This document shows, in pieces, positions 7,079-55,453 of a DNA stretch of 64,000 bases. The stretch lies in contig NZ_CP134696.1 in NCBI RefSeq assembly GCF_031851795.1, positions 6,634,001-6,698,000 on the forward strand, read 5' to 3'. The notes under the pieces were generated by a model. It was not told where the DNA came from. It did no database searches and saw only the letters and a list, made by a program, of their open reading frames with translations. The stretch is from Pontibacter sp. G13 (GTDB lineage: Bacteria > Bacteroidota > Bacteroidia > J057). Positions within the stretch are counted from its first letter, which is position 1. Each line of letters opens with the position of its first letter. Both the position numbers and the translations under genes were made by a program.

Positions 7079-7366
7079 ATCTGAGTGTTTGGGTACAAGT
7101 TACGGAATAGATGAATAGAAGATGTGGGATGGCTCGTGCGGCGTCAGGGATGGGAGTGGTGCGAGGTTTCCGAGCAGTCCGGAGCTCCACAGATAGGACT
7201 GGAACGAGTAAGGATGGAAAGCTTCAAATGCCTGTTCGAGTCATCATCGCGTAGGACGGAGCATCGCGACCCACGGAACAGCCCGGTCTGGCGACTGATT
7301 TGCAAGGGGAGATCCATGAATCTCAGCACGCCAGAGACGCCCTGATCATGCCTTTTCACCACATAG
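7079..7366. other. GC-rich intergenic stretch, possible dispersed element
   Basis: About 290 bases without a supported gene. It contains GC-rich words such as GACGGAGCATCGCGACCC and GGAACAGCCCGGTC, of a kind often seen in intergenic repeats of Bacteroidota. No ORF here has a plausible start or composition. A terminator for the downstream minus-strand gene follows. Confidence 0.35.
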
Positions 7367-40377: not shown

Positions 40378-40421
40378 CCGCAGCTCCAACCCCCTCGAAT
40401 TCGAGGGGGTTGGAGCTGCGG
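40378..40421. repeat. Perfect 44-bp palindrome at the trailer end of CRISPR array 1
   Basis: Two 22-base arms with no loop: the arm starting CCGCAGCTCCAACCCCCTCG (40378 on) is the exact reverse complement of 40400-40421, and the centre is GAATTC. It overlaps the most degenerate repeat of array 1 by two bases. As RNA from the minus strand it would form a very stable hairpin at the end of the array transcript, so a terminator or RNA-end role is likely. No long T run follows. Confidence 0.9.
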
Positions 40422-41858
40422 AGGAATCCACATTGAGGTGGAGGTAGGTTGGGAAGCTTTCAAGGAAAAAGCAAAAGCCTTTTACGAAGGTAAGTTTCAA
40501 TCCACATTGAGGTGGAGGTAGGTCGGGAAGCTAGTCGCCCTGTGCGTTGTGGCTACTGCTGCGATGGGTTTCAATCCACATTGAGGTGGAGGTAGGTCGG
40601 GAAGTCGCATGGGGTGATGGCCATTCCTTCATGTACTGGGAGTTTCAATCCACATTGAGGTGGAGGTAGGTCGGGAAGCTAGTCGCCCTGTGCGTTGTGG
40701 CTACTGCTGCGATGGGTTTCAATCCACATTGAGGTGGAGGTAGGTCGGGAAGTCGCATGGGGTGATGGCCATTCCTTCATGTACTGGGAGTTTCAATCCA
40801 CATTGAGGTGGAGGTAGGTCGGGAAGCTCAGGACGACGCAAACCAGTACACATGCCGCTTCGTGTTTCAATCCACATTGAGGTGGAGGTAGCACGCTAAG
40901 TCTGAGTTATGAAAATTGACTTTCAAGGGAAACTGAGTTTCAATCCACATTGAGGTGGAGGTAGCCCGGGAAGGCGACTTCCTCACAGCCTCTTTTTCCC
41001 CCAGATCTAGTTTCAATCCACATTGAGGTGGAGGTAGCACGCTAAGATCGCAATCCATGAGGCGTTGCACAAAAACGACATGTTTCAATCCACATTGAGG
41101 TGGAGGTAGCTCGGGAAGCCAGGAGCGGGCGGGAAGTATCGCTTTGGTATCAAGTAGTTTCAATCCACATTGAGGTGGAGGTAGCACGCTAAGCCTTAAT
41201 ACTGGAAAAATGGACCTTGACAGGACGTCGTTTCAATCCACATTGAGGTGGAGGTAGGTCGCTAAGACGCTGCGAATGAATCGAGTGATGGTTATCTTGG
41301 ATAGCGTTTCAATCCACATTGAGGTGGAGGTAGCACGCTAAGGTAAGTCTGCCTACCCTTTCGGTTATAACGAAAATCGTTTCAATCCACATTGAGGTGG
41401 AGGTAGGTCGCTAAGCAGAGCGCAACAAAGGCTGCATTAGTTGGAGTAGGGTTTCAATCCACATTGAGGTGGAGGTAGGTCGGGAAGTGTCAACATCCGT
41501 GTTGCCTTTTGTATCATGTGTTTGGTTTCAATCCACATTGAGGTGGAGGTAGGTCGCTAAGGCGAGTGGGCCTTTGTCGATGTCTATTTCCGGCGCTTTG
41601 TGTTTCAATCCACATTGAGGTGGAGGTAGCTCGGGAAGAAGCAGTAATACAAAATCGCAACATTCGCGAGCATACGTTTCAATCCACATTGAGGTGGAGG
41701 TAGCTCGGGAAGCACTCGGCGAAATTGCTTTTTCTAGGCATTTCGACAGTTTCAATCCACATTGAGGTGGAGGTAGCTCGGGAAGAAAAGGCTGACGATG
41801 TCAAAACGAAAGTCGAGGAGCGTTTCAATCCACATTGAGGTGGAGGTAGCCCGTGAAG
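40420..41858 (-). CRISPR. CRISPR array 1, 20 repeats and 19 spacers, type I-B
   Basis: Repeats are 37 nt with unit lengths of 72-77. In crRNA orientation (minus strand) each repeat ends ATTGAAAC, the usual 8-nt type I 5' handle, preceded by a hairpin TCCAC-CTCAAT-GTGGA, so Cas6 cutting there is expected. The low-coordinate repeat at 40420 is degenerate at its handle end, and a conserved leader motif lies on the high side, so the leader is at 41859 onward and the oldest spacers are near 40.4 kb. Repeat starts on the plus strand: 40420, 40494, 40568, 40642, 40716, 40790, 40864, 40937, 41010, 41082, 41157, 41230, 41306, 41379, 41451, 41525, 41602, 41676, 41749, 41822. The repeat end away from the handle varies greatly here (12 units with GGGAAG, 7 with GCTAAG, 1 with GTGAAG). 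Confidence 0.97.
40494..40789 (-). repeat. Tandem duplication of a two-spacer block in array 1
   Basis: 40494-40641 and 40642-40789 are identical 148-base blocks, each with two repeats and two spacers (starting CTAGTCGCCCTG and TCGCATGGGGTG). It lies near the old end of the array and must come from recombination or slippage, not new acquisition. Confidence 0.93.
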
Positions 41859-42048: not shown

Positions 42049-42630
42049 CTACCGGATGCACACATTTCTATAGGTACAATCTACACATCTTTTCTTGACT
42101 TTCGTTCCTTTTGGGTAGTAGTTTGATTCAATGATATGAAAAATCTGGTCGACGTCATCTTTGAGTCTCATTTTGTCATTTTCTCCAATTGGAACCTCTA
42201 CTAACTTGTGCCTACTTCTGGTGTACACCAAAAATCCTTTTTCCACTTCAGACCCAAAATTTTCCTCTATCAACAGCGCGTAACAGACCAGTTGAGTCCG
42301 ATAGGTCGAATAAACGCGATCCTTATACTGGGCAAATTTGAAGTCCAATGGGGCCATGTTCCCATCCGCCAGCCATAATACTTCATCGATTTCACCTCTA
42401 AGTCCATGCCCTGTCAGATATACTTGAACCTGCTTGCGTTGGACCCCGATTCGCCTTCGCAGATATTCGGCTTGTGAAGCAGCTTTTTCTTGATGAAGTT
42501 CTCTGCCTTTGACGACCTTGTATCTCCTGTCTTCTTGTTTGGGGAGCTGAAGCACATGCTGGAAATAGGTAAATCTCGGACAATAGTGATAATTGATGAG
42601 ATGGGTAGGAGTCAGTGTTCTGTGATCCAT
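42049..42630 (-). CDS. cas4: CRISPR-associated exonuclease Cas4
   Basis: A 193-residue Cas4 protein. The four iron-sulphur cysteines are present: one near residue 17 (YHYCPRFTYF) and three at the C-terminus (CVDCTYRNVC). The PD-(D/E)XK nuclease shows GEIDEVL and PLDFKFAQYKD, giving the D and D-x-K. Cas4 trims prespacers and selects the PAM side during spacer acquisition together with Cas1-Cas2. It is last in the operon, 3 bases after cas2; in many type I-B loci it precedes cas1 instead. It appears intact, but its acquisition partner Cas1 is broken here. Confidence 0.93.
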   Translation of the reverse strand: MDHRTLTPTHLINYHYCPRFTYFQHVLQLPKQEDRRYKVVKGRELHQEKAASQAEYLRRRIGVQRKQVQVYLTGHGLRGEIDEVLWLADGNMAPLDFKFAQYKDRVYSTYRTQLVCYALLIEENFGSEVEKGFLVYTRSRHKLVEVPIGENDKMRLKDDVDQIFHIIESNYYPKGTKVKKRCVDCTYRNVCIR

Positions 42631-42633
42631 GAT

Positions 42634-42924
42634 CTAGAAAAATAAGGCCCGTATTTCATCGGTTACCAGTTTCTTGTCAAATGCCTGACCCAGTAGCTCC
42701 GTTTCCACCAGTTGTTGACGAGTCATTGGAAATATGTATACCCGATCTTTATCCTCATCTATCCATTCCTCAATAGCCAAGGAAAGGGTGTCCTTTTCAT
42801 TGGAATTGAGCGATCCTAAAAACACCGAATATTGCACCCGGTAGAGTCCCGCTTGCTTACAAAGTTTAGCTACTCGATTACGGGCTTTGTCATTGGATAT
42901 GTCATAGAGTACCCAGCAAATCAT
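42634..42924 (-). CDS. cas2: CRISPR adaptation protein Cas2
   Basis: A 96-residue Cas2 with the N-terminal strand MICWVLYDISNDKARNRVAK (D in the YDISND motif), the following YRVQYSVFLGSL segment and DRVYIFPMT. It forms the central dimer of the Cas1-Cas2 integrase. The ATG overlaps the stop of the cas1 3' part (ATGA), the normal coupling, which shows the adaptation genes were once a working unit. The gene itself looks intact; downstream translation is likely affected by the insertion in cas1. Confidence 0.94.
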   Translation of the reverse strand: MICWVLYDISNDKARNRVAKLCKQAGLYRVQYSVFLGSLNSNEKDTLSLAIEEWIDEDKDRVYIFPMTRQQLVETELLGQAFDKKLVTDEIRALFF

Positions 42925-43226
42925 GGCGAGTCGATCAATGCGTTGGCATAGGTGTGCGCATCCAATTGCAAGGCATGTTGGCGAGTGAGGCTTCTACCAC
43001 GATGCCGAATCTTGGAACCTTGCACATATTCATTGAAGGCTTCCACCACCAAGGCTTTTCCGGCTTTGGTGAGTCCCACTCCGTTGGTGATGGATTGCCA
43101 ATGCGTCTGGTTGACACCTTTGCTGGAGAATAGTCGGAATACCACCCCCTTTCAGCCCAAATTCGATAGGGCTCGATAAAATCGTATACTGGAATTGCTA
43201 CAAAAAAGTGGACAGGAGCTAAAGGG

Positions 43227-44057
43227 CTAAATGGCCTGAAGAGATAAAAACTTTTTCTCAAAGTATTGTGAGGGAGTCAGATAATCCAGACTCATATGCA
43301 TTCTCTTGCGGTTGTACCAGATCTCGATGTATTCGAAGATATCCATCTCCGCCTCGCGCTTGGTCCTGTAGTCCCTTCCTGCGATCCATTCAGATTTCAG
43401 GGATTTGAAGAAGGCCTCGGCCACGGCGTTATCCCAGCAGTTTCCCTTTCGGCTCATTGACTGCACGACTGTCTTGCCCCTGCCCAGTTCCTCCCTAAAT
43501 TCGGCAGAGGAGTACTGGCTTCCCCGATCCGAATGGAAGATCAATCCTGAGCGGACCTCGCGGTTGGTCCGGGCCATCCTCCAAGCGGGCACGACGGTGT
43601 CGATGGCCTTCATCGAATGGCCCAGGGACCAGCCGATGATCTGCCGGTCGGCCAGATCCATAACCATGGTCAGGAAAATCCATCCTGCCCGGGTCCAGAT
43701 GTAGGAGATGTCCGAGACCCAGGCCCTCCCGAAGGTCCCCACCTCGAAATTACGGTCGAGGACGTTGGGACTTGCCAGTTGGTCCGGGGCAGTCCGGGTT
43801 CCCGGAAACCGTCGCCTGTTCACCTTGCTCCGCAAGCCCGCTGCACGCATCAGGCGCGCCACCCGTGGCCTCGACACCCAAATCCCACAATTCCTCAACG
43901 CCCGGGTGATTCGCAGACTGCCGAAGCTCCTGCGGCTCTGGGCATGGATGATCCGGATCTTCTCCAGGATCTGGCGGTTCTCAATGGCCCGGCGAGATTG
44001 GGGGCGATTCCGCCAGGCATAATAGCCGCTGCGACTCACTTCCATCACCTTGCACAT
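43227..44057 (-). CDS. IS3-family transposase OrfB (DDE catalytic subunit)
   Basis: This 276-residue stretch from the first ATG is the integrase part of the transposase. The DDE triad is visible: D in WVSDISYIW, D in LIFHSDRGSQYSS and E in NCWDNAVAEAFFKSLKSEW (35 residues after the second Asp). The N-terminal helix region (SGYYAWRNRPQS, SFGSLRITRAL) matches HTH_21 of IS3 OrfB. The natural product is likely the OrfAB fusion made by a -1 frameshift at 44138-44144, in which the frame enters OrfB as GHRHLFQAKRKIYEFIGRHR before the internal ATG. Confidence 0.95.
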   Translation of the reverse strand: MCKVMEVSRSGYYAWRNRPQSRRAIENRQILEKIRIIHAQSRRSFGSLRITRALRNCGIWVSRPRVARLMRAAGLRSKVNRRRFPGTRTAPDQLASPNVLDRNFEVGTFGRAWVSDISYIWTRAGWIFLTMVMDLADRQIIGWSLGHSMKAIDTVVPAWRMARTNREVRSGLIFHSDRGSQYSSAEFREELGRGKTVVQSMSRKGNCWDNAVAEAFFKSLKSEWIAGRDYRTKREAEMDIFEYIEIWYNRKRMHMSLDYLTPSQYFEKKFLSLQAI

Positions 44058-44089
44058 CCTTTCAACGGAAAATTCCCCTCGATGTCGCC

Positions 44090-44407
44090 CTATGAATTCA
44101 TAGATCTTCCGTTTCGCCTGGAAAAGATGCCGATGGCCTTTTTTAGAATGGCCAGCTCCTCGTCCCTAATCGCCAGCTCGCGCTTCAGCTGGGAAATTTC
44201 GGCCTCCTCAGGACTCATGGCCTTTCGGCCCGCTCCGGGAAAGCTCTGCTCCATCCCCTGCTTGGAAAACTCAGACCGCCAACGATAGATCAGTTCCGGG
44301 CGAAGGCCCAGATCCCGGGCAAGTACGACTATGTTGTCGCAGGTATAGCTCATTTCTACCGTCTTGAGCTTAAAAGTGCGGTCATACCGTCCTCTTGAAT
44401 TTGCCAT
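44090..44407 (-). CDS. IS3-family transposase OrfA (DNA-binding)
   Basis: A 105-residue protein from the ATG at 44405-44407 (MANSRGRYDRTFKLKTVEMS). It has the helix-turn-helix of IS3/IS911 OrfA (LARDLGLRPELIYRWRSEF, ~30-50) and a C-terminal leucine-zipper-like helix (EISQLKRELAIRDEELAILKKA). It starts inside the IS. OrfA stops at 44090, 33 bases before the OrfB internal ATG, in a different frame. Confidence 0.93.
   Translation of the reverse strand: MANSRGRYDRTFKLKTVEMSYTCDNIVVLARDLGLRPELIYRWRSEFSKQGMEQSFPGAGRKAMSPEEAEISQLKRELAIRDEELAILKKAIGIFSRRNGRSMNS
44138..44144 (-). promoter_or_regulatory. Programmed -1 frameshift slippery heptamer AAAAAAG
   Basis: On the minus strand the heptamer A-AAA-AAG falls in the OrfA frame (CTA AAA AAG) near the OrfA end, the standard IS3 arrangement. 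A -1 slip joins OrfA to the long OrfB frame. Confidence 0.88.
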
Positions 44408-45193
44408 AACAATCAATCATTTATGGGTTAACTGACTGTCCACGAAAAGGTATACACTCCATACCATGCTTTTGTGGTTATAATCATCGCGATGGAGATA
44501 GCCCACGTAGGGATCAATGCCAGCGATGATTAGGGATTTTTCAACCAGGCCATACAGCATCCCATAAGCATAGTTGAGGAAGGCATTGAAAGGATCTTTC
44601 GCGGGGCGGGAGCTTCTACCGTGGAAGGTATATCGAGCAGGAATGGCTTTTCCGAGCATCTGGAAATATAATCTGCCAGCTGTCCCCTCCCATCCTCTCA
44701 ATGTGTCCGAAAGACCATCGCAGCTATCCGCTTGGCTAGCAGTGATTTTGAATTGAAGGGAGGCAATTTTTTCTGCGGCTTCCTTCAAATCGTCCTGAAG
44801 GGTTTTTCGGTGTTTTCCGAGATCCACCAGAAATGCCTGCTGGTTTTCCAGCTTTTTCCCCAGCCATGTCTGAATGGCTTCAAGTCCTTCCTGTCCCAGA
44901 GAGGCTTTCAATTGTAGCTTTCTGATCTTGGTGGTACTTCCCAATTTGGCGTGCCAAATGCGACTATGCGGAAATCCATCTGATTTGACAAACAGGATAT
45001 CCACATGATACTTCATGGCCAATTCGATCGCATCTGTACTTAGGGCAGCTCCGCGACTCATCAAGATCCGGGAGACTTTCTGGGCGGCAAATTGATGGCG
45101 TTCAACCTGGCCCTCGACCTTTTTACGGACTTCAAACATGGCCTCTCGCACATGTAAATAGGTTCCCGGTGTGTTGATAAATAGGTCCATGAT

Positions 45194-45859
45194 TTACCTT
45201 CCAATCGTGTCAATGGGCAAAACTGCTCCGAACCCTCGGGCTGAACCTTTTCCCAAACCAATGGCGGGAGGCAGGAGCACATTGGTGGAGAATGATCCTG
45301 TGAACACCTTCATTTTGTTGTTCTTGAATTGTGATGACCGTTCCCGAAGGTTGGAGTGGACCTTGACAGGTTGAGAGGTGTCCAGATTAAATGCCTTGAG
45401 GAACCCTACCAAATGATTGCACAGGATGCGTTGCAGGAGGGATTCCCGCTCCATAGGTTTCCCAGTCCGGTATTTGGGATAGTTTTTCTGGTTGAGACCC
45501 ATGTAGGGATTGGCAAATCGGTAAATGAATGCTTGGTCTGCAATCCCAGCCTCAACGGTCTTGCAAGTGAGTTCCTTGGTCCTGACAGGGATGATCCGGT
45601 CTTCGATCTGGATCTTGTCAATCTTCGTATAGAGTTGGATCAGCAGTTGGCTGCCTGCTTCCAGCCCAATTACCTGAGGCACTCCTCCAATGACCTTGTA
45701 CTGGATAAGTGGATATTCATTGCGAAAAGTTCCGTCCTCAGTATGGTTGTGGAGTAGGGGAGAGACCTCGCGGAATTGATCCCCAAAGAATCCTCGGAGT
45801 TTATGTCCGTCGCGTATCCGGAGTTGGATTTCGGGGAATGAGATGTTGGTGTATTGCAT
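45194..45859 (-). CDS. cas6: CRISPR-associated endoribonuclease Cas6
   Basis: A 221-residue Cas6-type protein. The C-terminal glycine-rich loop typical of RAMP Cas6 proteins is present (PPAIGLGKGSARGFGAVLP), and the body has the strand pattern of a ferredoxin-like RNA nuclease (NISFPEIQLRIRDGHKLRGF at the start; PVKVHSNLRERSSQFKNNKM). It cuts the pre-crRNA 8 nt from the repeat-spacer border, giving the ATTGAAAC 5' handle seen in both arrays. It lies 5 bases after cas3 and 3 bases before cas1, so translation is coupled. The catalytic histidine is not identified with confidence. Confidence 0.85.
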   Translation of the reverse strand: MQYTNISFPEIQLRIRDGHKLRGFFGDQFREVSPLLHNHTEDGTFRNEYPLIQYKVIGGVPQVIGLEAGSQLLIQLYTKIDKIQIEDRIIPVRTKELTCKTVEAGIADQAFIYRFANPYMGLNQKNYPKYRTGKPMERESLLQRILCNHLVGFLKAFNLDTSQPVKVHSNLRERSSQFKNNKMKVFTGSFSTNVLLPPAIGLGKGSARGFGAVLPIDTIGR

Positions 45860-45864
45860 GGGGG

Positions 45865-48300
45865 TTAGAGGATGTGAGTATGTTTCGTTTTGTCGGAATT
45901 TCGGATGAAACCTGTATCACAGGCATATCTCTCCGAAAGGGATTGACGATCGATCAGTCTGATAGAAAGCACCTTTTCGGAAATTAAGGGTAGGTCCTCT
46001 GTCAAATACTTAGGGATGGTGAGTAGATGCTGTTGGAATATTTTTTTGAATGATCGATCAAATTCATGTTTTGATATCGAAGATTGGGGTCTATCCTCGC
46101 CATATAAATCCTGAAATGCCCGGAGTGCATTTGATGCTTGAGGTAACTCGATGAAAACCTGATCATATCTGTTGGACTCTTCTATGACCCGAAATGCACC
46201 GACTGAGTGTTTGGAATCTCCGTCATATTCAAGTCGTTTTACCGCATCATACAAACCTCTCGAATCCGCATAGGTATCATCAGAGATGGCTTTGAAATAC
46301 ATCTGGGTCAACTCAAAGTACTCAGGTTCTGGAATTGGAGAATCGGATAATGCCTTTCGAGCATGAAGCCGGGTATTGGGCCCATAGATCTTTGCGCAAT
46401 CTCCCAGGTCCACGATGTGCAGGGGGGATAAGGCCCTTTCTGGTGCGTTCTCTCGATTAATTCTTCCAGCTACTTGGACGATCGAATCAATAGGCCCCAA
46501 ATCTCTGATTCCCATATCAAAATCCAGATCAACGCCGGCTTCGATGACTTGTGTGGAAATAAGGATCGGAGCCTTCCCTGATTCGATGGCTTGTTTGATT
46601 TCGGAAATTCGATCTTTTCGAACGGCGGGAACCACATTGGTGGACAGATAAAATACAGGATTTTGAATCTCCAATTTGTCCTTCAAGGCTTGGATATCCC
46701 GATGAATGTCCAAGGATCGCTGTACGGTGTTTAATACAATCAAACAAGATTGGCTGGTATCCCATTCTGATGTCATTAGTTCGAGCAGGGGGCTATTGGA
46801 GTCTACCTCTTCATGAAAGTGCGTAATGATTTGAGTTCGGGAAAACTCACGGAAAAGAGGCTTTGGGTCCTCAATGAGATTGAATACTTCTGGCTGAGCT
46901 GATGCTTGGTTTGCTTCCAGAGACAAGATATGTTCATCTGCCAGTTCGAAAATGAGGGGCTGTGTGGCTGTCATCAAGACAAATCGACATCCCAGATATT
47001 GGGCCGCCATGTAGAGCATTGTGCCGATGAATGGCACCTGCTCGAGTCTCAAGCTCTGGACTTCGTCCATGATGATAATAGCTCCCGCCAGATGGTGGAA
47101 TTTCTTGAGGGTTTTGTTTTTGTTGGAAATGAGGGTTTGTAGCAATTGGACAAAGGAAGTGATCACAATATCGGCTTGCCAAGTATCTAATTGCATCACC
47201 TTTTGCTGATATGTCAACCGCGAGTCGGTGCTTCGAAGCGTTTGGTCGTCCGCCATCACATCGGCGTATTGATAATGCGCCAAAATTGTGGCATCTGTGC
47301 TCTCGAAAACAGATTGATACACGTCAAGCGTTTGCTCGATGATATTGATAAATGGAAGCGCTGTGATGATTTTGGCGGTGTATCCCTCTTCATCATAGAT
47401 TTTCTCCCTGAGCCCAATAGCAAAATCCAAGGCAGTCAAGGTCTTGCCAATCCCGGTCGGAGCAGTCAACACAAACAGACGCTTGGATAGAATATGGGGA
47501 TTTGCCAGATGTCCGACCACCTCTCTGCGAACTCGTTGACGAACCTCGGTATAGGGATTTTGGGGAGGGTTGAGCCGTTCGAGGAAATCATCTACAGCAC
47601 CAGCTGGTAGCCTGAAGGGTACATGAATAGGAGTATTTGATGCATCTAATTTATCAGCCTCGATCAGCAGGGAAAACAGGTAATTGACTAGGAAATAATG
47701 TTCAATATTTCCCTCCTTGGGAAAGAGTTTTCTTGTGAAGGACTTCCTGATTTCGAAAGGGGGAGAGAGATGCGCTTCAGATAGCTCAATCCTCATCTCT
47801 TGATTGATGATTCCTAGATTGGGAATAATTTGTTCTCGTTGTACCTCGAAGATGTTCGCTATTTCGCGCTGCTCGCTTCTTAGCATCCATTTATCCTGAA
47901 GGTTGTCTGGATTTTCTCGTGGCCAGAATAAGTTTCGATGATGACAAAGGATCATGAAATACGAAAAATAGGCCTTCTCAGGAGTGCCACTTTGGTCTAA
48001 GATATATTGAAAGAGGGCAAAAGCACCAAATCTACTGTGTTGCTTGAATGGCTGATCAGAGGGAGGAAGGTTCCCAAGCAAATATGTCTGAAAAAAACCG
48101 GTGTACTTCCCCAAGTCGTGAAAACCAATGAGCAGGTCAATCCATTTCTCCAAATCATCTACTGAGTAGCTGAAATTGAGCACTGGCGGGAGTTTACCTG
48201 ACACCGTATTACGAAGTCCCTGAATATGTTGACTCATGGTCTTGGAACCTTCAATCGTCCCATCTGGTCCCAATTGAGAATGAGAATAGAAGCTTTCCAT
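45865..48300 (-). CDS. cas3: Cas3: HD nuclease fused to DEAD-type helicase
   Basis: An 811-residue Cas3. The N-terminal HD nuclease (~1-220) shows an early SHSQL, GFHDLGKYTGFFQTYL (HD dyad) and QHSRFGAFALF. The helicase has Walker A TAPTGIGKTLTALDFA (~270), the DE(V)Q box IIIMDEVQSL, LMTATQPL and a final VAGRINRE. It is recruited by Cascade to nick and unwind target DNA. No internal stop or shift is seen, so interference should be possible. The start overlaps the cas5 stop by one base (TAATG). A late cysteine-containing tail (CDTGFIRNSDK) is less conserved. Confidence 0.93.
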   Translation of the reverse strand: MESFYSHSQLGPDGTIEGSKTMSQHIQGLRNTVSGKLPPVLNFSYSVDDLEKWIDLLIGFHDLGKYTGFFQTYLLGNLPPSDQPFKQHSRFGAFALFQYILDQSGTPEKAYFSYFMILCHHRNLFWPRENPDNLQDKWMLRSEQREIANIFEVQREQIIPNLGIINQEMRIELSEAHLSPPFEIRKSFTRKLFPKEGNIEHYFLVNYLFSLLIEADKLDASNTPIHVPFRLPAGAVDDFLERLNPPQNPYTEVRQRVRREVVGHLANPHILSKRLFVLTAPTGIGKTLTALDFAIGLREKIYDEEGYTAKIITALPFINIIEQTLDVYQSVFESTDATILAHYQYADVMADDQTLRSTDSRLTYQQKVMQLDTWQADIVITSFVQLLQTLISNKNKTLKKFHHLAGAIIIMDEVQSLRLEQVPFIGTMLYMAAQYLGCRFVLMTATQPLIFELADEHILSLEANQASAQPEVFNLIEDPKPLFREFSRTQIITHFHEEVDSNSPLLELMTSEWDTSQSCLIVLNTVQRSLDIHRDIQALKDKLEIQNPVFYLSTNVVPAVRKDRISEIKQAIESGKAPILISTQVIEAGVDLDFDMGIRDLGPIDSIVQVAGRINRENAPERALSPLHIVDLGDCAKIYGPNTRLHARKALSDSPIPEPEYFELTQMYFKAISDDTYADSRGLYDAVKRLEYDGDSKHSVGAFRVIEESNRYDQVFIELPQASNALRAFQDLYGEDRPQSSISKHEFDRSFKKIFQQHLLTIPKYLTEDLPLISEKVLSIRLIDRQSLSERYACDTGFIRNSDKTKHTHIL

Positions 48301-49085
48301 TATCGTGAAGGGATAGGTTCAATAAAGGTGATTCGCTCCAGGCCCGTCTGGGATTTGATCTCAGAATACGGACCCGTATAGACCGCACTGAATGGCTTTC
48401 CGGAAGTAGAGAAAAGCATACGACTCATGGATTGGAGCTCTCTGCTTTCATTTTCCTTGAATTCTGCGGGTAGTAATTCTTCAGTCAAGTGAAAATCTGA
48501 ATCGGGGGCGTGGATGATCGACTGAACCCCATGTGAATTGATGGCTGAGTGAAAAGTCAATTCCGCTTCATCTGCATGCTTCTCCGCCGTTTGCTCGATG
48601 AATTCAGCATGGGTTAAGCTTGCGTGGAAATTGGCCGTTCCAAATGTGAGGTTGAAGAGATGGTTTCCATTCAAACAGCATTCCTGTATTCTTTCGAATA
48701 GCTCAGCGTTCCCCGATGGGGTTAAATAAATGGCATATTGAAGGTCCTGAGTGGCTAAATCCTCCGGCATGACAATCTCAAAGGGGATCTGGGTATGTGC
48801 ATTGAATTTGTTGCTTCCATTCAGGTCGCTCGGACTGGATACTTTCAGGTGATTGAGCACATGGATAGATTTTCGTACTGCTCCTTTTACAGATATTCCG
48901 ATCCGTAGATTCTCATGCTGAAAGGCTTCATGATAGGAACCTTTCTCCAATCCCAACATGCTGGCTAGCATGCCCATGATCGTAGTTCTAGGCGGGATGG
49001 AATACGATAAGGCGGTACTGTTGCCGTAGAATTTTCGGAAGTGGGCCAGTTTCCCGGCCACTTCCAGTTTCAAGATGGGGTTCAT
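48300..49085 (-). CDS. cas5: Cascade subunit Cas5 (type I-B)
   Basis: A 261-residue Cas5 starting MNPILKLEVAGKLAHFRKFY. The opening beta-strand, the FRKFYGNSTALSYSIPPRTT segment and MGMLASMLGLEKGSYHEAF are the N-terminal Cas5 signature. Cas5 holds the 5' handle of the crRNA in Cascade. Its ATG overlaps the cas7 stop by four bases (ATGA), and its own stop overlaps cas3. The C-terminal part is divergent, as usual for the family. Confidence 0.9.
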   Translation of the reverse strand: MNPILKLEVAGKLAHFRKFYGNSTALSYSIPPRTTIMGMLASMLGLEKGSYHEAFQHENLRIGISVKGAVRKSIHVLNHLKVSSPSDLNGSNKFNAHTQIPFEIVMPEDLATQDLQYAIYLTPSGNAELFERIQECCLNGNHLFNLTFGTANFHASLTHAEFIEQTAEKHADEAELTFHSAINSHGVQSIIHAPDSDFHLTEELLPAEFKENESRELQSMSRMLFSTSGKPFSAVYTGPYSEIKSQTGLERITFIEPIPSR

Positions 49086-50074
49086 GCGAGTTGGAGATCA
49101 GGTGAATATTTGAAGATGACATCTTCGATACAGTCTTCTGTTGCCTTGAGGTGCTCAATGGCATTTTGTAGGGGACTGATATCCAATTCCAGATCTTTGA
49201 ATGCCAATACTTGCCGTGGTTCTTTTCCGGCTACCGGAGCGGTAGAAATCAGGTTCCGCAAATCGCCCAATTTTCCGTTGGCCACGCCGGGCTTGTATTT
49301 GACCTCCAAGTATAGTTTGGGATATTGGTTGAGCTTGGATCTAGTGGGGGAGGCTGTTGTTCCCTCCCAAATACTCGTTCTGAATAGGTCTAGGTCTTCT
49401 TCGCGGACATGGGTTTCACGGGCCGCATGTGCATTGATCGATCCATGAAAGGCCAATAAGCTATATTTCACTCGGTAATCTTTGCCCATCGTCGAATTGC
49501 CATCATTCATGATACTGGTGATCGTGGGAGACTCCATCAAAAAAACCTCGTTGAGCGAATAGCCCCAATTGAGCTGGATGGGACCGGTAATGTTTTTGGG
49601 GTACCCTTTGATCGCCAATGCGCTACCAAACCATTGGATATCCTGAAAAACATTCCTTACCAGATAATCTACCAGTACAATGAAAATTTCCCCTTTTTTA
49701 TCTGCTCGGATTTTTTTCAAAGTTTCAACTGGAGATTTTCCGATCAATTTTTCAAAATCCGCTACCAGTTCAGGGGTTCCTAGAATGCCCTTCACATATT
49801 CTGAATCTTGTAACAGGTCTTGCAGAACGCTTTCAATGCGAGTTTCCATTCCCACCTTTTCGCCGGATTCAGTATCGATGAATATCTGCTTACCAGTTTG
49901 CTTCAAATATTCCCGAATATTGCGCTTTACCCGTACATCCGTGACCAGATTTCGGTTGGTATCATAATCCATGCGCGGACGATTTTCCTGATCTGGGTCT
50001 CCATTGGGATTACACATGATGGCTTCGTAGAGAAACAGGAAGTCGGAATTCTGCTTGATGGTATTATTGCTCAT
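49082..50074 (-). CDS. cas7: Cascade backbone subunit Cas7 (Csh2/DevR type)
   Basis: From the ATG at 50072-50074 (MSNNTIKQNSDFLFLYEAIM) the protein is 330 residues; a longer in-frame upstream part overlaps cas8 and is not used. The CNPNGDPDQENRPRMD segment at residues ~20-35 is the Cas7 signature of type I-B, followed by TDVRVKRNIREYLKQTG. Further on are WFGSALAIKG and a TGPIQLNWGYSLNEVF segment. Cas7 coats the spacer part of crRNA. It overlaps the cas8 3' end by 11 bases, so the two are translationally coupled. Confidence 0.92.
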   Translation of the reverse strand: MSNNTIKQNSDFLFLYEAIMCNPNGDPDQENRPRMDYDTNRNLVTDVRVKRNIREYLKQTGKQIFIDTESGEKVGMETRIESVLQDLLQDSEYVKGILGTPELVADFEKLIGKSPVETLKKIRADKKGEIFIVLVDYLVRNVFQDIQWFGSALAIKGYPKNITGPIQLNWGYSLNEVFLMESPTITSIMNDGNSTMGKDYRVKYSLLAFHGSINAHAARETHVREEDLDLFRTSIWEGTTASPTRSKLNQYPKLYLEVKYKPGVANGKLGDLRNLISTAPVAGKEPRQVLAFKDLELDISPLQNAIEHLKATEDCIEDVIFKYSPDLQLA

Positions 50075-51965
50075 CTTGTTGGGGTTGTTCTGTTTTTTTG
50101 ATAGATGAAATCGGATATGTATAGCCTGCCAGTAGATAGAAAACCGATTCTTTGGGGTCCATTTTCCATTCGGCGGCATTAAACAATTGCTGAAACTTTG
50201 TCCAGTCGTAGGTAACTTTTTCAGATACACCGTATTGGACGGCTTTTTGGAAGACATCTGTTGCCAGTCTTTGGATCGCACGTTGGTTCATGCCATTGTA
50301 GTCGATCTTTTCAAGGACACGGCGCTTGTTGTTTTTTCGGTTCTGTTCGTAGGAGATGCGGCCTATGACCTTTCCCAAGAAGAACAGCCCTTGCTGTGAT
50401 TCGGAAAAAGCCAATCGCTCGAAATACTCCTGAATACTTGGGTCGTATTGCATGGTATTTTTTGAGAGTTGTATAGATGAAGGGATCAGCTCAAGCTTTC
50501 GGACCAGTTCGATAAATCCCAGATATTGAAAGACTGCTCGCTGATATTGGAAAAATGCTTCCCCTTTAAGATGGATATTGACATACCCCCCTGGTCGAGT
50601 ATCTGGATATCGTACACATTGAGCGTATTCACAAAACGCACTGTATAAGGTAGGAAGATGGATTTTTCGGGCTTCCAGTACATTCTTGAATAATTGCAAG
50701 CATGGGGTCTGACGGTCAATTTTTATGGCAGTGTCTTTTTTTCCATTTTTTCTAATGGGAAAATGGAAGTAAAAGGTACCCAGAGAGAATGGCCCTTTCA
50801 TTCCCAATGCATTCAATGCCTGGGTGATCTGCTGATTGGATCGAAGGATCTGATTGATTCTTGAAGCAGGTACGTCCTTGATCTGATTGATAACCTTGGT
50901 AGACTTTCCATCAGATTTTATTCCCACATAATTCATCCTGAAACCTTGTACACTTTCTTCTGACAGCTCAGCTAGATATTCGTCCAATGTTTTCAGGGAA
51001 AATATCCATTCAGAATGCAGCCGGTAATCTTCCACCAATTCAAGGCTCAGCGGAGTAGATGAGAATGAGGGGATTTCGGGGATCGCAATGTGGGGCAACC
51101 CTGCAATGAAGAGCGAAGCATGTTTTTGGAGATAGGTGCCGCCCCGATCAATGAACTTTTCAGTCTCTTTTGAACACTGGAAATGCTCATGATAGCGCTT
51201 TCCCGAAATATTCGGCGCTGTATGGATATGAGTCGTTCCGAATATCTTCTGGATATCTCGATTTCCATAAGAGGGCGCTTGGCATTCAATTGCATATTGG
51301 CCCGTCAAATAGTCCAGTTTGGGTGAACCTCCTTCTTGGGAAATAGGCTTTTCGATGAAGGCGGAAAATTCTTGCTCAATCAGATCGAACAAATCCGGAT
51401 CAGAGAAAAGGGGAATGGGTCGATTGTCTGTGGTGGAATCCTGAATATAAACTGATACCAAATGAATTTTCAGATTCTCTGCACCATCTACTTTTTTAGA
51501 GATTTGGGTGAGGTTGTAGTTCCCTTTTGGAGTCTTAAACCATTCGTTGATTTGGCCAACTTGGCCTTTGATTGTCTCTAGCCGCTCAAAAAGGGTCGTT
51601 TCCTGTAGTTGTGGATACTTCTTTTCAATGAGGGCGATCAGCTCCGGCTCTCCCGATTTGGTACCAATGCCCCAGAGCGTTTTCAGGAGGGTGTCGAATT
51701 TGCTGGCAAGTACTGAAACGTACTTCTTTTTCGACTTGCCTCGCAACAGACCTACCTTGATCAATCCAATCCGTTTCCGATGCGCCAAGCTATTGTCTAG
51801 CCTCACGAACTCAGGCTCGACCATTCCTGTCTCCAGATCAAATACCAAGTTCAGTTGACGGGCTTGATCGGTCAACAACTTTTCCGGAATCTCCTCAAGA
51901 ATATCTTCCCAGGGATCTCGGTCCTCACTCAACTGCCTTCCGATTTCATACAAAGTTTCCATCAT
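50064..51965 (-). CDS. cas8b: Large Cascade subunit Cas8b
   Basis: A 633-residue protein in the position and of the length of the type I-B large subunit (Cas8b; TM1802/Csh1 class). It starts MMETLYEIGRQLSEDRDPWE, as Csh1-type proteins do (x-L-Y-x-I-G-x). No enzymatic motif is seen; this subunit recognises the PAM and helps recruit Cas3. Two cysteine-bearing segments (YAIECQAPSYG, HEHFQCSKET) may mark a structural metal site, as in some Cas8b zinc fingers, but this is uncertain. Family assignment rests on context and the N-terminus. Confidence 0.8.
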   Translation of the reverse strand: MMETLYEIGRQLSEDRDPWEDILEEIPEKLLTDQARQLNLVFDLETGMVEPEFVRLDNSLAHRKRIGLIKVGLLRGKSKKKYVSVLASKFDTLLKTLWGIGTKSGEPELIALIEKKYPQLQETTLFERLETIKGQVGQINEWFKTPKGNYNLTQISKKVDGAENLKIHLVSVYIQDSTTDNRPIPLFSDPDLFDLIEQEFSAFIEKPISQEGGSPKLDYLTGQYAIECQAPSYGNRDIQKIFGTTHIHTAPNISGKRYHEHFQCSKETEKFIDRGGTYLQKHASLFIAGLPHIAIPEIPSFSSTPLSLELVEDYRLHSEWIFSLKTLDEYLAELSEESVQGFRMNYVGIKSDGKSTKVINQIKDVPASRINQILRSNQQITQALNALGMKGPFSLGTFYFHFPIRKNGKKDTAIKIDRQTPCLQLFKNVLEARKIHLPTLYSAFCEYAQCVRYPDTRPGGYVNIHLKGEAFFQYQRAVFQYLGFIELVRKLELIPSSIQLSKNTMQYDPSIQEYFERLAFSESQQGLFFLGKVIGRISYEQNRKNNKRRVLEKIDYNGMNQRAIQRLATDVFQKAVQYGVSEKVTYDWTKFQQLFNAAEWKMDPKESVFYLLAGYTYPISSIKKTEQPQQDEQ

Positions 51966-52014: not shown

Positions 52015-52815
52015 TCATTGATCCAGTTGTGTTAATATTTTTTTTGCCCGGATGATCATGTATTCCTTCAGGGCTGGAGGTTGGATCACCCGGATATCCA
52101 TGCACATCCCCATGACAAACCGGCCAATCCCGGGGAGCCCATAGACCACGGTAGAGAATCTGAATCGATCCGAGTGGTCGATCGGCCAGATGTAGGATTC
52201 TGCAGCCGGATATTCTTCGATGAGGATTTGTTTGGCGAAATGACTGAGTTCAAGCTCCACCGTGAGTGCCTCTGATTCATCTCCGGAAAACCCGAATAAG
52301 TCTAAGGTTTCCATGGGGTCGGGAAATTGGATGGGGGTTTCCAACACCTCAAGGTCATCTATGCGGCTCAATTTGAAATTCCGGATGCCCTGCTTGTGGG
52401 TGTCGTAAGCCAGTAGGTAGGCTTCGTCAGTTGACAGAGAGCGAGGCTCCACGACCCGCAGGCCGGATACTTGATTCTGCGAATTATGATACCCCGAGAT
52501 TGACACCTGCACTTCATGCTCCAGCGCAAATCTGATGTCCTTGAGGATCTCGTGTTGGCGAATCCGATGGAGGTTCTCAGCAAGGGGAATAATATGGTGG
52601 TCTTCCCCTCCATTTTGGGGGATAGAAATATAAGGGTTAGATCGGTAATCCTTGTCAATTGTATATCCAACAGACTCTAATGTTTCGATATATCGATAGA
52701 TAGAACGCCGGGAAGTGGAGAGGATTTTTGCTAGTTGTTCCACACTGTGGCGGGGGATTCGGGAGAGTAACCGTATCAACCTCAGGCATCTATCGAGGGT
52801 GGCTTGGGTGCTCAA
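52015..52815 (-). CDS. HTH-WYL-domain transcriptional regulator heading the cas operon
   Basis: A 266-residue protein with an N-terminal helix-turn-helix (LLSRIPRHSVEQLAKILSTS then RRSIYRYIETLESVGY; ~10-60) and a WYL domain (~110-200; SGLRVVEPRSLSTDEAYLLA, YDTHKQGIRNFKLSRIDDLE). A C-terminal WCX-like extension follows. WYL proteins bind nucleic acids or nucleotides and often control CRISPR and other defence genes. It is the first gene of the minus-strand operon, 49 bases before cas8b, so it may sense infection and control the cas genes. Between it and array 2 are 101 AT-rich bases with no terminator. Confidence 0.85.
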   Translation of the reverse strand: MSTQATLDRCLRLIRLLSRIPRHSVEQLAKILSTSRRSIYRYIETLESVGYTIDKDYRSNPYISIPQNGGEDHHIIPLAENLHRIRQHEILKDIRFALEHEVQVSISGYHNSQNQVSGLRVVEPRSLSTDEAYLLAYDTHKQGIRNFKLSRIDDLEVLETPIQFPDPMETLDLFGFSGDESEALTVELELSHFAKQILIEEYPAAESYIWPIDHSDRFRFSTVVYGLPGIGRFVMGMCMDIRVIQPPALKEYMIIRAKKILTQLDQ

Positions 52816-52916: not shown

Positions 52917-55453
52917 GTTTCAATCCACATTGAGGTGGAGGTAGCACGCTAAGTCGATCGAGATACAGGAAGATCCGAATGCCCAATTCGCGTTTCAATC
53001 CACATTGAGGTGGAAGTAGCACGCTAAGCCTGTGACCAAAACCCTGCATATCGAGCGATTCAGGTTTCAATCCACATTGAGGTGGAGGTAGCACGCTAAG
53101 CTAGAACTTTCCTTAACTGCGCTTTCTCTACCCCATGTTTCAATCCACATTGAGGTGGAGGTAGCACGCTAAGTGGAGTATGTTTTGAAAAAGAGATAAT
53201 TTGGAAGAAAGTTTCAATCCACATTGAGGTGGAGGTAGCACGCTAAGCTTCGCAGGCGGCGAACCGAAATCAGAATACCGTGAGTTTCAATCCACATTGA
53301 GGTGGAGGTAGCACGCTAAGAAAGTACATCTCGACGACCTACGGATATGGGGTATAGTTTCAATCCACATTGAGGTGGAGGTAGCACGCTAAGACGAACA
53401 TCATCACTCCATCCCAGCTAACTCACGAGTTTCAATCCACATTGAGGTGGAGGTAGCACGCTAAGAGCTTTCGCGGGCAAATCTGAGCTTTCAGAACGTC
53501 CGTTTCAATCCACATTGAGGTGGAGGTAGCTCGCTAAGATAGACCCAGACATGTGAACCGTCAAATCAATACACTAGTTTCAATCCACATTGAGGTGGAG
53601 GTAGCTCGCTAAGATAGGTTACGTGATTGCTCATCCTCCAAATGATTGATTTTCAATCCACATTGAGGTGGAGGTAGCACGCTAAGCTATTTCTATCATT
53701 TGGTGTTAACACTCAAGCATGAGTTTCAATCCACATTGAGGTGGAGGTAGCACGCTAAGCGTACCTTTCGAAAAAGAGATCATTTGGAAGAGCGACCGTT
53801 TCAATCCACATTGAGGTGGAGGTAGCTCGCTAAGAAGCCGGAATCGAATGATACATGATCACACAAAGAGTAGTTTCAATCCACATTGAGGTGGAGGTAG
53901 GTCGCTAAGAAAGCATGTATACACTCACTTCCTTACTGGATTGCAGTTTCAATCCACATTGAGGTGGAGGTAGCACGCTAAGCCGAGATAATCCGGTCTT
54001 GGTCAACAGAGATGTTCCGTTTCAATCCACATTGAGGTGGAGGTAGCACGCTAAGCGAAACTAAGAATCGAAAAGTAAGGCGTAGGGATCAGTTTCAATC
54101 CACATTGAGGTGGAGGTAGCTCGCTAAGATAGACCCAGACATGTGAACCGTCAAATCAATACACTAGTTTCAATCCACATTGAGGTGGAGGTAGCACGCT
54201 AAGACTAGCTTTTTTAACTGGCGTAATGTACGCTTTTGGGTTTCAATCCACATTGAGGTGGAGGTAGCACGCTAAGCGAAAGAGCCCGTCGGAGGTACCC
54301 AGCCTCTGACCAAGTTTCAATCCACATTGAGGTGGAGGTAGCACGCTAAGCGATCAGGAGGACTTGTCGCAAATAGCAAGGGAGCTGTTTCAATCCACAT
54401 TGAGGTGGAGGTAGCACGCTAAGTGAGATCCGCTTACAATCTGTCAAATTTTCATGAGGAGTTTCAATCCACATTGAGGTGGAGGTAGCACGCTAAGCCA
54501 GATTCACGCCAAAAATCTCCTTAAGGAAGTCTTGTTTCAATCCACATTGAGGTGGAGGTAGCACGCTAAGTTTGTATGATCGAGACAAGACCGGCATCGC
54601 CCAAGCGTTTCAATCCACATTGAGGTGGAGGTAGCACGCTAAGAGTTGGAAGAATTTACAGCCGATGACTATGACGCTAGTTTCAATCCACATTGAGGTG
54701 GAGGTAGCACGCTAAGCGCGGATCTGCTTTTTGAGGAGAATGCCGCGGCGCTGTTTCAATCCACATTGAGGTGGAGGTAGCACGCTAAGTGTATCAATAC
54801 GCTCAAGGAAGGCGGATATATCCACCGTTTCAATCCACATTGAGGTGGAGGTAGCACGCTAAGAAAGCCGCAAGCCCATTTCGGCATATTTTGCGGCCAG
54901 TTTCAATCCACATTGAGGTGGAGGTAGCACGCTAAGCCAATCGTCATACCCATCACCGTATCACGGTTGAGAAGTTTCAATCCACATTGAGGTGGAGGTA
55001 GCACGCTAAGCCTTGAGGTCAAGCAGGAAAACAGCTTCCTACTTGTGTTTCAATCCACATTGAGGTGGAGGTAGGTCGCTAAGGCAAAGGTGATATTATC
55101 GTATTGCTTGACTATGAGGGTTTCAATCCACATTGAGGTGGAGGTAGGTCGCTAAGTTTTTTGTTAGTTGCTCAGCCACCTATTCCTACCCAGTTTCAAT
55201 CCACATTGAGGTGGAGGTAGGTCGCTAAGAATGGTGCCAATTCGAGCGAAGGGGCACCTAGTAAAGCGTTTCAATCCACATTGAGGTGGAGGTAGGTCGC
55301 TAAGGCGCCACTAGTTTCAAATTTCTTTCGCTCATAATCTAGGTTTCAATCCACATTGAGGTGGAGGTAGGTCGCTAAGATTGCAGCGGCAGGGGTTGGT
55401 GCGCTCGGAGTTGGGCGTTTCAATCCACATTGAGGTGGAGGTAGGTCGCTAAG
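52917..55453 (-). CRISPR. CRISPR array 2, 35 repeats and 34 spacers, type I-B
   Basis: The 37-nt repeat matches array 1 with units of 72-75 bases. Most units end GCACGCTAAG on the plus strand; repeats at 53502, 53577, 53798 and 54092 have GCTCGCTAAG. The one at 53873 and the six at the leader end (55047, 55120, 55193, 55268, 55343, 55417) have GGTCGCTAAG. The repeat at 53650 begins with T instead of G, and that at 52992 has one internal G-to-A change. Spacers 53539-53576 and 54129-54166 are identical. Transcription is on the minus strand from a leader at 55454 onward, toward wyl-cas. Confidence 0.97.

Follow-up and report, generated by a model that had tools for sequence, protein, structure and literature searches.

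An IS3-family insertion splits cas1 in a type I-B-like CRISPR-Cas locus of a genome that carries a second, intact cas1-cas2 pair

Damage to cas genes by insertion sequences (IS) is documented, and we draw throughout on excerpts of the relevant reports. Sheng et al. (2023) count 163 natural IS insertions into cas genes, in 57 genera and from 20 IS families (PMC10359306), and in Shigella IS insertions and frameshifts are described across cas genes (PMC2886076). In Beijing-like Mycobacterium tuberculosis, an IS3-family transposase is found where cas1 and cas2 would be (PMC10333696). Broken cas1 genes are also described in the type I-C system of Streptococcus mutans UA159, which stands beside a second, acquiring system (PMC7316486), in truncated type I-B loci of Bacteroides fragilis (PMC5704556), and in Thermus thermophilus HB27c, where several Cas1 copies occur per cell, some of them broken, and arrays adjoining cas1 remnants did not expand (PMC7515739). 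Expansion of the type III arrays of T. thermophilus required their own Cas1, the I-B Cas1 being no substitute (PMC7515739), and Sulfolobus islandicus cells with several interference complexes draw their spacers from a single adaptation module (PMC4390879).

The locus that we analyzed lies in a window of 64,000 nucleotides, the whole stretch of DNA considered here, and is a further case of this documented IS damage. It shares with the cases of Sheng et al. an IS and a target duplication within a cas gene, but the portion of that survey we cite stresses the loss of immunity (PMC10359306), whereas here the integrase was hit and the interference genes look intact. As in M. tuberculosis, an IS3-family element sits at the adaptation genes; there cas1 and cas2 are described as replaced (PMC10333696), while the window locus, which is type I-B-like, has a simple insertion and a frame change. 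The S. mutans system resembles ours in its company, but according to the text cited its effector is broken too, with both cas1 and cas8c truncated (PMC7316486), and the B. fragilis loci, although likewise truncated in cas1, are additionally described as lacking cas3, cas4, cas7 and cas8b6 (PMC5704556). The HB27c remnants are presented in the excerpt as truncated fragments with no IS insertion and were tested by experiment (PMC7515739), in contrast with our case, which is read from sequence alone. Literature searches on interrupted or truncated cas1 returned no publication on the window locus. Its value is that of a clean natural example: visible damage is confined to the integrase, the interference genes read through and another system is kept.

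Two CRISPR arrays flank the cas operon, and genes and arrays alike are on the minus strand. Array 2 (35 repeats, 52917-55453) is followed by a gene for a WYL-domain regulator (52015-52815), which separates it from a cas8b-like large subunit gene (50064-51965), and then by cas7 (Csh2-like, 49082-50281, with a true start, judged by eye, probably near 50068), cas5 (48300-49085), cas3 with HD and helicase domains (45865-48300), cas6b (45194-45859), the split cas1, cas2 (42634-42924) and cas4 (42049-42630). Array 1 (20 repeats, 40420-41858) adjoins cas4 with its leader end, and in both arrays the leader end is at the higher coordinate. Cas7/Csh2 membership is supported by TIGR02590 (172.6 bits against a cut-off of 171.55), and all family models for Cas3 (TIGR01587 and TIGR01596) and Cas6b (Cas6b_N and Cas6b_C) score above cut-off, as expected of type I-B. 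The Cas8b/Csh1 model TIGR02591 gives 93.7 bits, below its curated cut-off of 104.05, and the Cas5b model TIGR02592 gives 69.5 bits, below 97, with the general Cas5 model TIGR02593 at 37 bits, above 17.8. Because Cas8b and Cas5b score below their subtype cut-offs, we regard the type I-B label as probable and not as proved. Each of cas2, cas3, cas4, cas5, cas6b, cas7 and cas8b is an uninterrupted frame in the list of open reading frames and has a family match, so that cas2 and cas4, the other genes of the adaptation module, are intact, and the statement of the first-pass annotation that cas8b, cas7, cas5, cas3 and cas6 carry no visible lesion is borne out.

The cas1 gene (42921-45190) starts at 45190 and ends in a C-terminal frame whose TGA overlaps the ATG of cas2, in agreement with the extent originally assigned to it. 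Its 5' part (44462-45190, minus strand; TIGR00287, 186.7 bits) comprises 243 codons with the conserved Glu and His, and continues for 14 codons inside the IS to give a 257-aa frame. The IS itself (1,272 bp, 43190-44461, minus strand) lies between two copies of the trinucleotide TAC, at 44462-44464 on the right and 43187-43189 on the left, and cas1 resumes beyond it with a first piece, VYDFIEPYRIWAE (43150-43189, minus strand), that holds the conserved Asp. The earlier claim that cas1 is cut just before its YDFIE segment, with the conserved Glu and His parted from the Asp, is therefore accurate: the split falls after residue 243, ahead of YDFIEPYR, with the His upstream of it and the Asp of YDF downstream. 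At the corresponding site, the related loci L026-L028 encode one continuous chain, ...HRDDYNxxSxVYDFIEPYR.... We take the conserved Glu, His and Asp of Cas1 to be its metal ligands, and a full-length chain carrying all three is absent, owing first to the IS and then to a change of frame. Thus, the assembled sequence encodes no full-length Cas1. A complete IS3-family element has transposed into cas1 between the part bearing Glu and His and the part bearing Asp.

That the insertion is a complete IS3-family element, with both ends, TAC on either side and intact transposase frames, had been claimed before and is upheld. The element ends in TGGA...TCCA, and at its borders with the target duplication the terminal repeats match at 16 of 26 positions as imperfect inverted repeats. 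On the plus strand the flanks read ...GTATAC and TACCATGC..., which gives the 3-bp TAC duplication. By itself, a 3-bp duplication is weak support for the borders; they are also fixed by Cas1, whose N-terminal part ends in V243, aligned with a Val in two relatives, and which resumes on the far side with VYDFIEP. Other borders, with AAA or AAAA duplications, were rejected since they came from a border scan whose range left out the true ends. The upstream transposase frame, orfA (44090-44416, minus strand), matches HTH_Tnp_1, and orfB (43227-44057, minus strand), encoding the DDE transposase, matches HTH_21, rve, rve_2 and rve_3, all above cut-off. A slip site, A_AAA_AAG, is present in the orfA frame at element position 318, and the orfB frame, in -1, is open from position 297, that is, across the slip site. 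Elements of the IS3 family have an orfA with an HTH domain and an orfB, in the -1 frame behind an A6G-type slip site, with a DDE (rve) transposase domain; their terminal inverted repeats are imperfect with TG...CA ends, and they duplicate 3-5 bp of the target. The features of the window element fit an intact member of this family. It is the sole copy detected in the 7.67-Mb genome. A partial match (70% over about 400 bp) occurs in one of 21 further genomes from the order, and 78 of 72,556 plasmid records match partially, none of them covering 80% of the element. Thirty viral loci match it, the best at 45% over OrfB residues 2-265.

A second lesion, missing from the first-pass annotation, is found downstream of the IS, where the frame of cas1 changes over a run of five G (43145-43149, minus strand; C5 on the plus strand). 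Since the IS and its duplication together measure 1,275 bp, which is divisible by three, and the 5' part and VYDFIEPYRIWAE share one frame, the frame change is either a separate lesion or an assembly error. Beyond the run, the 3' part of cas1 (42921-43144, minus strand), VVFRLFSSKGVNQ...ANALIDSP, is in a different frame; judged by its 58% identity to L026 over 74 residues and by its stop overlapping the cas2 ATG, this frame is real. The five nearest relatives, L026-L030, have a single open cas1 frame of 330-346 aa that reads through the G-run site. A coding-frame model was too coarse for the 13-codon piece, fused orfB with the 3' part of cas1, the two being in one frame, and did not resolve the change at 43145; of the 12 same-strand frame changes that it placed in the window, 10 fit the table of open reading frames by eye, and the exceptions, near 7239 and 31724, have no exact fit there. 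The data support a loss of acquisition at this locus, and if the second lesion is real they do so more strongly than first claimed.

It is possible, though we would not bet on it, that the frame change is a sequencing or assembly error and that only the IS is real, in which case the locus would remain broken. Such errors typically occur at homopolymer runs, and the remaining 3' part is well conserved. However, 62 of the 79 runs of at least five G or C in the window lie inside 23 listed open reading frames, including frames of 2,698 and 2,137 aa, and the assembly is therefore not generally poor at such runs. Were the change an error, precise excision of the element could in principle repair the locus; were it real, cas1 would remain broken even without the IS, and an IS-free cas1 in most cells, which the first-pass annotation had named as a refuting observation, would carry less weight.

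A further alternative, similarly tentative, is that the frame change came first, so that the IS entered, as a passenger, a cas1 that was already dead and decaying. One gene with two lesions would suit this order, and cas1 also dies without an IS in related loci: L040 has an in-frame stop and L037 a C-terminal frame change. Yet a single genome cannot give the order of lesions, and no further lesion was seen in cas1, cas2 or cas4. The two broken relatives come from a crude test of 80 related Cas1 loci, 10 of which have fewer than 290 open codons after the start of the match; by this test two of the 80 show a break, neither caused by an IS. In L040 (10001-10996, from Algoriphagus alkaliphilus) the stop is at codon 101 of a cas1 beside type III RAMP genes, and the broken cas1 of L037 lies from 10001 onward. 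We rejected L093, where the gene runs off the contig, and L097 and L101, where the match starts within an open frame; the remaining five, L098 and L102-L105, were judged solely by the stretch of 38-372 open codons that precedes the match.

The insertion had been called recent, and indirect support for this comes from the intact IS frames, the conserved pieces of cas1 and the small amount of private change in the 28-nt repeat cores. The N-terminal and C-terminal parts of the split cas1 are 60% and 58% identical to L026, compared with 59% and 62% between L026 and the intact cas1 of L028; since the broken gene is about as similar to L026 as an intact one is, there is no excess decay. In the window, the 28-nt core is changed in 2 of 54 repeats (with the trailer-end repeat set aside), a count that omits the variable 9-nt 5' part and is compared with changes over whole repeats in other loci: 1 of 48 in L003, the second CRISPR locus of this genome, 1 of 104 in L028, 2 of 9 in L026 (one shared variant) and 0 of 23 in L030. 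On this footing, the share of changed repeats is below that of L026 and somewhat above those of L003 and L028. The intact IS frames and the low decay of cas1 and of the repeat cores thus favour a recent loss.

In a rough survey over whole repeats, which found arrays in 40 of 82 sources (the window, L003 and L026-L105), the window was the third most variable of the 40, and some of the variation elsewhere was one-base over-extension (L095 and L087). Repeats with multiple substitutions are described as frequent in type VII loci, which have no adaptation modules, in the excerpt cited (PMC12669027). We therefore considered whether varied repeats might mark the window arrays as frozen, and rejected this because the variation of the 37-nt repeat falls mainly at positions 4, 5, 8 and 9, in a few shared, interleaved states, and looks like shared history and not like private decay. 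The 28-nt 3' core is almost invariant, with positions 4, 5, 8 and 9 variable. In array 1 the repeat states follow one another in nearly random order (13 runs, where shuffling predicts 15.8), and those of array 2 are partly grouped in blocks (9 runs, where shuffling predicts 17.7); blocks are what simple copying of the leader-end repeat would produce, and the closest parallel to the window pattern is L101.

The first-pass annotation had described the locus as adaptation-dead and had named a second intact cas1-cas2 pair elsewhere in the genome as the observation that would speak against it. On searching, exactly such a pair was found. The second cas1, on contig 1 near 1.663 Mb, encodes 343 aa and matches TIGR03641 at 417.6 bits, above cut-off; its type I locus (L003) also has cas2, cas3, cas6 and a cas4-like gene that scores just under cut-off (TIGR00372, 60.2 bits against 65), together with an array of 48 repeats of 29 nt, 47 of them identical, whose sequence is unlike that of the window repeats. 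A search of the genome with PF01867 gave these two cas1 places and no third. The description thus probably holds for the locus, on account of the IS and then the frame change, and fails for the cell, which has a second intact cas1-cas2. Our main reading, to which we assign a probability of about 0.8, is that the type I-B-like locus lost its own integrase while its interference genes remained uninterrupted, and that the cell keeps a second system capable, in principle, of acquisition.

Given the established role of Cas1, integration by Cas1-Cas2 into both adjoining arrays should be blocked. Existing spacers may still be used, as the crRNA-processing and interference genes are uninterrupted, and the interference competence of the locus, which we read only from the absence of visible lesions, may persist. 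The cell would in principle still acquire immunity through the second Cas1-Cas2 and its array, probably not into the window arrays. The loss would then be apparently recent and ordinary IS damage to a dispensable defence gene. Should sister isolates come to light, they could reveal for how long immunity persists once its store is no longer updated, and also whether the Cas1 of one subtype can serve the arrays of another. None of the 53 spacers of both arrays matched a phage collection, and three of the 53, searched as 26-mers, had no match in viral contigs.

We doubt strongly that the loss of acquisition was itself favoured by selection, for example by stopping a costly uptake of self-like DNA. 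One spacer of array 1 does match a chromosomal hybrid two-component gene exactly over 23 of its 39 nt; however, this is one spacer only, it lies away from the leader end, and its other 16 nt fall outside the exact block, so that it is probably not a working self-target. Comparably improbable is that selection has kept the locus as a fixed memory after acquisition was lost, with the second type I system doing all new learning; if true, a frozen archive and an updatable one would divide the work of immunity between them. In the array 1 spacer with the chromosomal match, the block at 41266-41289 equals L140:5203-5226, 24 nt when one repeat base is counted. The matched region is the AraC-like end of the hybrid two-component gene and the rest of the spacer reads, by eye, as a related AraC segment, so that a paralogue or the chromosome of a relative may be its source. 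Searches of the genome itself with both arrays gave nothing beyond this one partial chromosomal spacer match, and the 28-nt core, within two mismatches, occurred in this genome only among 395 genomes of the class, its own included.

Acquisition at the window arrays would continue despite the broken cas1 if the second Cas1-Cas2 served them in trans. The intact cas1-cas2 and cas4-like gene in the same genome, the intact cas2 and cas4 of the window locus itself and the similar ends of the repeats of both systems (GGATTGAAAC and GGAATTGAAAG) would allow this, and the shared module of S. islandicus offers a parallel in the text cited (PMC4390879). Against these, the two Cas1 proteins are 27% identical over a 102-residue stretch, the repeats differ in sequence and in length (29 nt in the second system versus 37 nt in the window), the leaders look unlike by eye, and array 1 begins with a repeat whose 5' part is unique in the arrays, which speaks weakly against very recent acquisition. 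Because of the 27% identity, the different repeats and the Thermus precedent, in which type III arrays needed their own Cas1 (PMC7515739, as excerpted), rescue by the second Cas1 across such different repeats is unlikely, and we give it very little credence.

Among the relatives, L027, L028 and L030 match the window in all cas genes compared, whereas L026 and L029 match it in cas6-cas1-cas2-cas4 with effectors that are much more distant, and no cas8b match was found in these two. Of the 12 other genomes of the family that were searched, none belongs to the same genus. The same cas6-cas1-cas2-cas4 block (42049-45859 in the window) thus stands beside distant effectors in L026 and L029, and a past exchange of effector and adaptation modules is probable. 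Within the arrays themselves, a two-spacer block of array 1 (40493-40788) is present as an exact tandem duplication, and one spacer of array 2 occurs twice, at the repeats at 54119 and 53529.
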